A stretch of DNA of 64,000 nt from Hysterium pulicare CBS 123377. Taxonomy: Eukaryota > Ascomycota > Dothideomycetes > Hysteriales > Hysteriaceae. The position numbers and the translations under genes are program-made. The stretch is from assembly GCA_000467715.1 (NCBI GenBank), contig AJFK01000845.1, forward strand, positions 116,753 through 180,752, in the 5' to 3' direction. The notes beneath the pieces were generated by a model that saw only the letters and a list, made by a program, of their open reading frames with translations, searched no databases and was not told where the DNA came from. This document shows positions 13,301 through 42,443 of this stretch, in pieces. The first letter of the stretch is position 1; every line of letters starts with the position of its first letter.

Positions 13301-14438
13301 AACATTTCGGAGATGCTTTCCCATTCAGGATGATCCTGCATATCTTAATGATGTGACAGGCGCTTAGTCGTAACATGGCCTGACGCTTGACGTAGGTTAC
13401 TGTTCGCGGTATGTTGGAAAATTCCTTTTGTTCCAAAAAGATGATGTTTGTATTTGATTATGACTGATGATTATTTCGTTCTTTATGTTTCCAGCCTGTT
13501 TTATTCTTGATATGAGACGGAGGTAGGAAGGTTGCTTTGAAATGAGAATATAGGCTTTTTTTTTAAAGACGGCGTAACCAAAACACTTTTAAACTGAAAT
13601 TCCTCGGAAAAAGTATTTTGAGAAGATCCAAAGCTTATCAATGACCTTGAAAACCACAGCCACGTTCCCAAGTTGTGAAAAAGAAATGGCTCCTACCTTG
13701 GAGCGGGATACATGGCTTCATTTCAGAATCGGAACTGGACTTCGTTGACCTTTTGATCCGCATCATTGTCAGTATATTTTCGGAAACGCAAGCCGCGTCG
13801 GTGACCACAAAGCTGGGGTTCGAGTAGATGTTTTGTTTCTCCACCCTGTGTTGGTATTCAATTGAGGCGAAACCGCATTCGCAACGACCCTTCCGCGTTG
13901 CCCGTCGATATATGGGAGGTACTTGTGATTTTCTCACGAGAATAATGGCTGTTCTATCGGCATATCTGCTTTCTTCCCAAGTATATTCCAGTATTTCGCA
14001 ATGACGTTGATCCCGCATCTTGAGGATCCGAGACGAGAAAGGAGTTGCGTACGGAGTATTTGGCTTCTACACTTGTGAGTACCTAGGTATCCATTAGAAT
14101 GTTGTTGTCACAAGGAGAACAATTCGGGTGGCTGCGCGCTAAGCTACAAAGGATTAGTTCGGTCTTGGCGCATAGGTGCGCCTTTGACTTCAGACTCGCT
14201 TTCTATTGTTTCTTTCACCACCTCTACCCCATCTCCCTCCTCGTCGCGATTGCTTCTTTGCGGTCCGCGCTTTCAACTCACTAACCCTAAATAGAGGCCG
14301 TTTCCGGTTCTGCCACGAATTTCTTTATCCACATCCACCTTAGTGTTCGGGTCAAGCGCCCCCTTGGTACAATCAAATCCCGAAGACCATCAACGATATT
14401 CATTCCATCACGCGCGATCTTGAAAGCATCCCGTCACC
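10328..14438. other. Long intergenic region, GC-rich then AT-richer
   Basis: No gene is supported in these 4.1 kb. From about 10.4 to 12.3 kb the DNA is GC-rich and poor in stops on both strands, giving many overlapping frames of 90-154 codons with mutually incompatible Arg/Ser/Ala-rich translations. From about 12.3 to 14.4 kb it is richer in AT. No transposon domains, long repeats or tRNA structures were recognised. The right end contains the tho1 promoter. Confidence 0.5.
14080..14089. promoter_or_regulatory. Palindromic TACCTAGGTA motif (copy 2)
   Basis: Exact copy of the palindrome at 3996, here about 350 bp upstream of the tho1 start. Possible regulatory site; function unknown. Confidence 0.3.
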
Positions 14439-39693: not shown

Positions 39694-40666
39694 ATGAAGT
39701 CCTTCGTTGTTTCTGTCGCTTCGGCGCTTGCTGTCGTCCAGCAGGTTGCTGCTCATGCCATCTTTCAAGATCTGTGGGTGGACGGTGTAGACAAGATATG
39801 TACCCGCCAGGCTATTATTCTCAGCGTTTGCTAACATACTCTTTGCACAGCACTACATGCGCTCGGGTGCCAACATCCAACACTCCAGTCACGAACGTAG
39901 GATCCACCGATGTCCGATGCAATGCAGGCACAAAGCCCGCTGCAGCAAAGTGTGCAGTCCCAGCAGGCTCAACTGTGTCCGTTGAAATGCACCAAGTAAG
40001 GACCTCAAGATCTTTTCTGAGCGCAAGCTCTAATGCATAATTAGCAACCCGGAGACCGAAGCTGCAAGAACGAAGCCATTGGTGGAGCTCACTACGGACC
40101 CGTTATCGTCTACATGACGAAAGTCGATGACTCTTCGACCGCAGACGGCTCGACCGGCTGGTTCAAGGTCTTCGAGGATGGCTGGTCCGCTGGCAAAGGT
40201 GGATCAGGAGACAACGACAACTGGGGCACCAAGGATTTGAACAGCTGCTGTGGAAAGATGGACGTCAAGATCCCTTCGGACATTCCGGCTGGTGATTACC
40301 TTCTCCGCGCCGAGGTCATCGCATTGCACACTGCCAGCTCCGCTGGTGGAGCTCAGCTGTACATGAGCTGCTGTATGTTTTCTTCCTTGCGATCCGGCTT
40401 ATTTCCGTGTGACATCGGCCATTGAATGAATACTAATCTCCCGCATAGATCAACTCACTGTATCAGGAGGCGGCAATGCCAGTCCCGCTACTGTCAAATT
40501 CCCAGGCGCATACAAGTCCTCCGACCCTGGAATCAAGATTAATATCCACGCAGCTATATCATCGTATACGGTTCCTGGACCCGCAGTCTATAGCGGAGGT
40601 ACCACCAAGGTTGCAGGCAGCGGCTGCCCTAATAAGCGCAGTGTTGCACTGATGTTCAATGCGTAA
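39694..40666 (+). CDS. AA9 lytic polysaccharide monooxygenase, secreted
   Basis: A secreted copper enzyme that oxidatively cleaves cellulose or related glycans. Best model: four exons, 39694-39795, 39849-39995, 40045-40372 and 40449-40666, 264 aa. A 20-residue signal peptide (MKSFVVSVASALAVVQQVAA) leaves His21 as the N-terminal copper ligand. The second His of the brace is His99 in AIGGAHYGPVIVYM, and the axial Tyr is in AQLYMSCYQL. Other family blocks are QPGDRSCKNEA, WGTKDLNSCCGK and AGDYLLRAEVIALH. There is no carbohydrate-binding module; the protein ends soon after the catalytic domain. Intron 1 is abnormal: homology and frame require AT-AC borders (see separate entry). Introns 2 and 3 are GT-AG. 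A 20-bp palindrome lies in the 3' region shared with the convergent acyl-CoA dehydrogenase. Confidence 0.92.
39796..39848 (+). other. Probable AT-AC intron in the LPMO gene
   Basis: A 53-nt intron beginning ATATGT and ending TTTGCAC, with a good fungal branch point TTGCTAAC 14 nt before the end. Removing exactly these bases joins VDGVDK to STTCARVP in phase 0, matching AA9 relatives as I know them. No GT-AG pair keeps both frame and the conserved WVDGVDK segment; the only in-frame one (GT at 39774 to AG at 39850) deletes it. The 5' end is the usual GTATGT with the first G changed to A, so a U2-type AT-AC intron is more likely than U12. Confidence 0.6.
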
Positions 40667-40926: not shown

Positions 40927-42443
40927 CTACAACCTCGCACAAGGCCCCGTCTCCTTCGTACCATACTTCCTAAACAAAGCATCTGTAGCATCCATTTGTT
41001 TCTGGATCAAATCCCTCGCCCCTACAGCCTTCTTGTTCTCTCTCCTTCCTAGCTGCTCCAAGTGCGCCTCATCCGGTCCATCTGCAATTCTCACTGTCCG
41101 AACCTGAGCCCACATGTATGCCAGTGGCGTATCCTGACAAACACCTTGAGCGCCGTATATCTGCACCGCTCTATCAATAACATCCAGTGCCATGTTGGGG
41201 ACTAGGATCTTGGCCTGCGCTATTTCTACTAGTGCTTGCTTCGCATTTCCGAAGTCAATGGCTGCTGCGGCATTCAGGACGATGAGGCGGGCAGCATCAA
41301 TCTCAATACGGGATTTAGCGATCCATTGTAGAATGACACCTTGTTGCGAGAGAAGCTTGCCAAACGGCTTTTTGTGCTCAGCATTGGCTCGAGTGAGCAG
41401 CCATTTGAGGGCTTCTTCCGCCTGGGCGACGTAGTTAGCGATGCCCCTTCTTCTACTGTCTAGACGGAGAAACACTTACTGCACCAATTGACCTCATAGC
41501 GTGATGTATACGGCCCGGTCCCATACGTCCTTGCATCACCTCAAATCCCCTCCCGTCACCAAGTATGATATTCGAAGCCGGGACACGTACGTCTTTGAAG
41601 ATGAGATGGGCATGGCCATGGGGTGCGTCGTCGTACCCGTACACTGAAAGCATGCGCTTTGACGTAATTCCTGGCGTGTTGGACGGAACAAGAATGATTG
41701 ACTGTTGCTTGTACTTGTCTGGGTTGTTAGGATCTGTTTTGCCAAGGACAATGTACAATTTTGCGCGAGGGTCGCCGGCGCCAGATATCCACCATTTCTG
41801 TACGATAGATGTGTAAGATGGCCTCTTGTAAAGCTGACACGATTGGGACTAACCTGCCCATTAAGCACGTATGAGTCCCCATGCCTCTGTATGCTCAACT
41901 GCACATTCGTCGCGTCGCTAGACGCAACGTTTGGCTCTGTCATAACATAACAGGACCTAATTTCTCCCCTGAGAAGGGGCTCTAGCCATTGCTTCTTCTG
42001 CTCTTCGCTTCCATACTTGGCCAGAACCTCCATATTCCCAGTATCAGGAGCCGAGTTATTCGTTGCTTCAGACGCCACTCTCGACCTCCCAAATTGTTCG
42101 CACATCAACCCGTACTCCAGATTCGTGAAACCGGCGCCTTCTTTGTAGTGGCCCTTCGCCAGAAACATGTTCCACAATCCGAGGCTCTTAGCTTTCGCCT
42201 TTAGGTCGTCCATGATGGGTGGATAGCCCCATCTTTGCGAGCCCTCCCCCAATTGAGCAGTGTATACGGGATCAGCGGGGATGCATTCTTCGTTTACAAA
42301 CTTCTCGACCTATGTTCAGATGTCAGAAACGAACGCGTTAAGGATGTGACTTGGGAAAGGCGCACTATATCCAGAGTCTTACGTGCTCGGTCACTGACCA
42401 AGCCTCTCACAATTGGCGGAATCCTCTCTGAAGCCGTCGGCAT
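40927..42443 (-). CDS. Acyl-CoA dehydrogenase, ACAD10/11-like, with PTS1
   Basis: A flavoenzyme introducing the trans-2 double bond into acyl-CoA. Four exons, all phase 0: 42443-42366, 42309-41854, 41797-41480 and 41421-40927, giving 448 aa. The N-terminal helical part includes [14 protein letters not shown]. The substrate/FAD segment is [17 protein letters not shown], followed by [40 protein letters not shown] and [14 protein letters not shown] are typical of the ACAD10/11-like fungal branch. The C-terminal helices contain [14 protein letters not shown] and [17 protein letters not shown]. The last three residues, ARL, are a type 1 peroxisomal targeting signal, which argues for peroxisomal rather than mitochondrial action. 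It is convergent with the LPMO gene. Confidence 0.9.

Follow-up and report, generated by a model that had tools for sequence, protein, structure and literature searches.

Can an intron in a fungal enzyme gene run from AT to AC, and if so, which spliceosome would remove it and for how long has it been removed? The question is raised by the first intron of a gene for an AA9 lytic polysaccharide monooxygenase (LPMO) in Hysterium pulicare, located in a stretch of 64 kb of genomic DNA that was analysed as a whole and is referred to here as the window. An earlier note on this DNA had described the gene, together with an ATATGT donor, a CTAAC branch point, an intron end at AC and the in-frame junction VDK|STTCARVP, and all of these were found in the sequence (Table 1). 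Intron 1 reads ATATGTACCCGCC...GTTTGCTAACATACTCTTTGCAC, that is, ATATGT...GCTAAC...GCAC.

The spliced product matches the AA9 profile PF03443 far above the cut-off of 27.8 bits, as well as 31 distinct PDB sequences at E up to 0.001, of which Neurospora crassa NCU01050 is the top match (E 2.3e-45). His 21, the first residue of HAIFQDLW, aligned to the first residue of the nearest PDB chains. With both the profile match and a predicted mature N-terminal histidine, the gene is assigned to the AA9 LPMOs. Because exon 1 encodes this histidine, removal of intron 1 would be needed for an active enzyme; translation with the intron kept in gives a 46-residue product, and no active enzyme should be expected from it. 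Adjoining the gene, on the minus strand of the window (40927-41848), are long open frames whose translation we take to resemble an acyl-CoA dehydrogenase.

Table 1. Coordinates of the window AA9 gene, its sister-gene intron and U1-like sequences elsewhere in the genome
Feature	Location	Strand	Remarks
AA9 (LPMO) gene	window 39694-40666	+	4 exons, 264 aa, signal-peptide-like start, then HAIFQDLW; PF03443 207.8 bits
Exon 1	window 39694-39795	+	signal-peptide-like start, predicted mature N-terminal His (codon 21), VDGVDK; phase-0 end
Intron 1, predicted AT-AC borders, 53 nt	window 39796-39848	+	same position and borders in L006
5' splice site ATATGT	window 39796-39801	+	fungal GTATGT with G1 to A; direct reading
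Branch-site-like GCTAAC	window 39830-39835	+	presumed branch A 39834, 14 nt before intron end; direct reading
3' splice site CAC	window 39846-39848	+	YAG with last G to C
Competing AG, two bases beyond AC	window 39849-39850	+	with AT donor 39796, frameshift
Exon 2	window 39849-39995	+	starts STTCARVP
Intron 2, GT-AG (GTAAGG...ATTAG), 49 nt	window 39996-40044	+	
Exon 3	window 40045-40372	+	
Intron 3, GT-AG (GTATGT...CATAG), 76 nt	window 40373-40448	+	
Exon 4	window 40449-40666	+	stop TAA 40664-40666
L006 intron, predicted AT-AC borders, 50 nt	C238 56536-56585		ATAAGT...GGCTGAT...GTGAAC
U1-like L062	C250 31111-31249		43-44 bits as U1
U1-like L063	C300 95304-95452		43-44 bits as U1
U1-like L064	C15 19923-20081	-	23.6 bits as U1

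To determine which borders keep the reading frame, in-frame, stop-free joins around the site were listed for ten chosen border pairs. This list did not bear out the earlier note's statement that AT-AC borders alone fit: in addition to AT-AC at 39796-39848 (VDK|STTC), it holds AT-AG at 39798-39850 (VDKITTC), GA-AG at 39795-39850 (VDNTTC) and three GT-AG joins (39774-39850, 39778-39824 and 39787-39824). The two GT-AG joins that end at 39824 lose residues and insert others. Ten AT-AC joins were listed, among which only 39796-39848 pairs a consensus donor with a linker as long as that of the paralogue described below. Nor does the frame exclude an indel at the donor, since an A inserted after the first G of GTATGT gives the observed GATATGT, and without that A a GT-AG intron remains in frame. 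Taken by itself, the window sequence would leave an indel possible and the choice of borders undecided. The choice between AC and AG does matter in this gene, because splicing from the AT donor at 39796 to the AG at 39850 would shift the frame and yield a product of 78 residues. In the GCACAG at window 39846-39850, the AC and AG acceptors lie two bases apart, and only AC is in frame with that donor.

The window protein was searched against the genome that the window comes from, which comprises 596 contigs and 37.2 Mb. The best place outside the window was a locus on contig C238, L006, with 281 bits (69% over query residues 45-221); the next other gene scored 116 bits. L006 is the closest AA9 paralogue, 65% identical to the window gene, and was picked up by protein similarity, not through its intron borders. 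It reads GTT GAC ATG, then ATAAGTATTCCTCAACTCTGAGCAAGACTGCTTGGCTGATTTCCGTGAAC, then GGT TCA ACC TGC GTG AGG ATG. Taking out the 50-nt segment that starts with ATAAGT and ends in GTGAAC leaves VDM|GSTCVRMP; this aligns without gaps to VDK|STTCARVP and places the L006 intron at the same phase-0 position as intron 1 of the window gene. The remainder of L006 is open to a stop, with a second intron that is GT-AG and 49 nt long. Ten border pairs were listed for this locus also. Both of its GT-AG joins, 35 and 44 nt long, lose at least VDM and bring in TAWLISVN, a GT-AA join costs the protein one residue, and a further two AT-AC joins, of 44 and 53 nt, have no consensus donor; among the ten listed pairs, only ATAAGT...GTGAAC combines a consensus donor with an ungapped homologous protein. 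Two separate loci, at a codon boundary common to both, are thus predicted to have exchanged G1 for A and the final G for C, and as far as DNA allows, L006 decides in favor of AT-AC for the window gene.

The paralogue bears on each of the other ways of reading the window gene. A non-GT donor spliced to the AG at 39850, whether AT-AG or GA-AG, would keep the frame, use a textbook TTTGCACAG acceptor and give protein models with nearly equal AA9 scores. We nevertheless consider this unlikely, since L006 has no AG near the 3' end of its intron and fits AT-AC with a consensus donor, the donors themselves (ATGTAC for AT-AG and GATATG for GA-AG) are poor, and the GA-AG protein would be one residue shorter than that of L006. 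A misassembly, or a genuine insertion of one base into a GTATGT donor, which would make this a misread gene or a fresh null allele, accounts for GATATGT and for the in-frame GT-AG intron that its removal restores; it is very unlikely in view of the AT and AC borders that a paralogue on another contig has independently, the open remainder of the window gene and a joined protein that would fall one residue short of L006. A GT-AG intron with an unexpected donor at 39774 would be in frame with a good acceptor at 39850, but it would remove WVDGVDK, a segment whose counterpart is retained both in L006 and in a more distant relative, L022, and it lowers the AA9 score to 198.5 bits; we regard it as highly unlikely. 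The preferred reading for both genes is an AT-AC intron.

Profile scores were also tried as an arbiter of the joins and do not discriminate among them. With PF03443, the alternative window joins score 207.8 (AT-AC), 206.6, 206.9 and 198.5 bits, AT-AC being best by about one bit, and the AT-AC and 35-nt GT-AG versions of L006 tie at 210.1 bits each. In the five PDB alignments displayed, the window protein has a one-residue gap just past the junction, so that these more distant AA9 proteins exceed it by one residue at that point; the AT-AC join equals L006 in length but is one residue below those PDB proteins. As a guide to how often such a join arises by chance, the sequence bounded by the GAC and TGC codons of each gene, which were kept fixed, was shuffled 200,000 times with dinucleotides preserved. 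ATAWGT...AC joins that keep the frame and leave four residues, no more and no fewer, ahead of the Cys appeared in 119 of 200,000 window shuffles and 59 of 200,000 L006 shuffles, and such joins with a CTRAY branch in 8 of 200,000 for either gene; the pattern was picked after both sequences were known, so that these figures are guides and not strict tests.

If the intron has AT-AC borders, it might belong to either spliceosome. The earlier note had proposed U2-type splicing with paired terminal changes and not U12, and this is supported by the U2-like donors and branch sites, by a sister gene with the same pair of changes and by the minor snRNAs, none of which scored over cut-off. The donors ATATGT and ATAAGT equal fungal GTAWGT (GTATGT, GTAAGT) except at position 1, and the branch sites read CTAAC in the window gene and CTGAT in L006. 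The consensus branch site of U12-type introns is TTCCTTRAY. Direct reading of both introns found no such element. Neither ATATGTAC nor ATAAGTAT fits the U12-type donor RTATCCTT as given in the passages available from PMC2846911. An Rfam search of the genome returned no U12 match at E up to 10 and no U11 or U4atac match at E up to 1, in a search insensitive enough that the U1 model missed a real U1. None of the 13 U6atac matches exceeded 17.3 bits (cut-off 33), and weak ones also occurred in 11 of 14 prokaryote controls; U6, as a control, gave five matches over cut-off. The genome's U1 gene was unlisted in the U1 model search and was found by a pattern search; scored afterwards with Rfam it ranked best, at 53.4 bits, which is still under the U1 cut-off of 69.5. 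The absence of minor snRNAs is weak evidence because a like search missed this real U1. A U12-type intron, removed by a minor spliceosome, would have the AT-AC termini typical of that class. We find this reading barely credible, given donors that lack the ATATCCTT core, branch sites of CTAAC and CTGAT, the snRNA searches with the weight just described, and the statement in the cited passages of PMC10639083 that surveys of Ascomycota and Basidiomycota have found no convincing minor introns.

We also examined how the donors of the probable U2-type intron could pair with U1. The canonical U1 (L069, contig C315, pattern match 13322-13388, minus strand) has a normal ATACTTACCT 5' end. The L006 donor can form 7 bp with the 5' end of U1 (+2 to +8, -4.5 kcal/mol); pairing of the window donor is weak (-1.6 kcal/mol) and similar to that of the intron 3 donor in the same gene (-1.9 kcal/mol). 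Three further U1-like sequences (Table 1) have a 5' end without ACTTAC and have in common an ATTGCAC loop, an AATTTTTG Sm-like site and the 3' flank TTTTCRTTGAT; they may be pseudogenes or variant forms of U1 RNA. The L064 fragment also has a sub-threshold U2 snRNA match (456-581 of the fragment, minus strand, 34.3 bits against a cut-off of 46), at a distance of about 1 kb from its U1-like sequence. A U1 variant that recognises A1 was considered and set aside, as duplex energies pick out none of the three: with their 5' ends guessed, the window donor gave -4.1 with L064, -3.6 with L062 and -2.0 with one form of L063, versus -1.6 with U1, and for the L006 donor U1 itself was best (-4.5).

The two genes also give an indication of the age of the intron. 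A tree was built from 18 rows: the window gene plus 17 AA9-matching loci out of 20 fetched, three having been left out for too little aligned sequence. The window gene and L006 are sisters in this tree, with support of 100/99. Between them, dN is 0.28 and dS 2.44 by NG86 (0.29 and 2.12 by LWL85), for a dN/dS of about 0.1 with dS saturated, and the same residue occurs at 168 of 263 aligned codons, the poorly aligned C-terminus included. Both genes appear to have been kept under constraint as proteins long after the duplication, and therefore intron 1 has presumably been removed for a long time in both.

The earlier note had also suggested that close relatives with GT-AG borders at this phase-0 site would point to a recent switch. 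This comparison, run here on paralogues, had a divided outcome: the distant, long-branch AA9 gene L022 (contig C543) does have an intron with GT-AG borders there, 54 nt long and likewise in phase 0 (VNGVSQ|GLGVAMRM), with CTAAC before the AG, and the sister gene L006 is already AT-AC, which suggests a switch before the duplication and not in the window gene alone. GT-AG is taken as the probable older state at the site, with the place of L022 in the tree unsure and with three other AA9 relatives (L024, L026 and L027) having no intron there. Two scans of prokaryote and viral collections found no relatives.

To search for further introns of this kind, we counted genome matches, overlapping ones included, to ATAWGT N20-50 CTAAC N4-16 YAC, a pattern that is blind to L006 itself (CTGAT branch, AAC end). 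There were 181 matches, compared with 139 for the same pattern starting with TT and 1268 for GTAWGT...YAG; the corresponding reversed-pattern controls gave 462, 548 and 541, so that the AT pattern is not enriched over its control. Thirty rows of the 181 (27 different sites) were checked for open flanks and 12 were read, none being convincing; several contain an evident GT-AG intron or fall within a long frame. Within the 64-kb window, the pattern fits nothing but the AA9 intron.

Together, these observations make it very probable that 39796-39848 is a real U2-type AT-AC (type II) intron that the major spliceosome removes and that arose from a GT-AG intron by paired terminal changes before the window gene and L006 duplicated. 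The support in the sequence consists of the frame, a position and borders common to two genes, U2-like signals and purifying selection. As expected of type II, an AT 5' end and an AC 3' end are indicated by frame and homology in two paralogues, the donors ATATGT and ATAAGT are U2-like past the first base with G at +5, and the likely branch sites near the 3' end, GCTAAC in the window gene and GGCTGAT in L006, are U2-like also. We infer splicing at AT-AC, the order of changes and the mechanism, the last from literature passages. In the proposed sequence of events, a phase-0 GT-AG intron in an AA9 gene would have undergone G1 to A and the last G to C before the duplication; the major spliceosome would remove the resulting intron, with U1 and U6 reading the donor from +2 onward and U2 recognising CTAAC or CTGAT as the branch site. 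During the second step, the contact between G1 and G-1 would be replaced by one between A1 and C-1.

The intron type is already known; what is added here is a pair of genes that conserve it. According to the passages available, type II introns such as human SCN4A intron 21 share the AT and AC termini, the +5 G and the major-spliceosome signals (PMC2831892), whereas the window and L006 intron is 50-53 nt long, fungal and in an AA9 enzyme gene. The sodium-channel AT-AC introns are proposed there to be U12-derived (PMC2831892), but the AA9 intron more likely comes from GT-AG, because L022 has GT-AG at the site. In yeast, which is without a minor spliceosome and whose standard introns are normally never AT-AC, the SUT635 protointron and an alternative RPL30 junction are likewise spliced as AT-AC by the major spliceosome, and in a mutated intron AT-AC was second in efficiency to GT-AG (PMC6726248, the latter citing Parker and Siliciano 1993). 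Those passages describe a protointron and an alternative junction, whereas in the AA9 pair AT-AC is seemingly an obligatory, conserved coding-gene junction. U12-type AT-AC introns have the same terminal dinucleotides but differ from the AA9 intron in donor core and branch site, and U12 splicing is given as missing in Ascomycota and Basidiomycota (PMC2846911, in the passages available).

Fungal surveys, again in the passages available, put AT-AC at 0.019% of introns (PMC7072748), at 69 of 14305 junctions in Trichoderma longibrachiatum (PMC4324775) and at 0.03% of SnowyOwl introns (PMC4084796). AT-AC is also among the non-canonical types listed for Fusarium graminearum, in which seven genes with non-canonical sites of one type or another were Sanger-confirmed (PMC3577648). 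These surveys give counts, and their passages name no AA9 gene or pair of paralogues sharing AT-AC. A search within one open-licence library found no relevant report on AT-AC introns in LPMO or GH61 genes.

U2-type AT-AC introns may be trapped, since both ends would need to change simultaneously (PMC2831892, in the passages available). By this view, A1/C-1 would be irreversible by any single mutation and would persist through duplication and the saturation of synonymous sites. A wider and distinctly tentative proposal, which we think rather doubtful, is that an AA9 subfamily carries an old trapped major-spliceosome AT-AC intron across many fungi, where it would control whether the exon that encodes the catalytic histidine is joined to the rest, and would lead to misannotated gene starts in public genomes.

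Although fungi are known to have U2-type AT-AC introns, these are scarce, and in the passages available the prior cases are counts or alternative junctions. Sister genes that apparently keep A1/C-1, alongside a relative whose intron at that site is GT-AG, would offer a clean evolutionary case for a joint change of first and last base, and the AC and AG two bases apart in the window gene a natural test of the A1/C-1 pairing rule. In practice, gene finders limited to GT-AG and GC-AG would drop or misjoin exon 1, and with it the N-terminal histidine.
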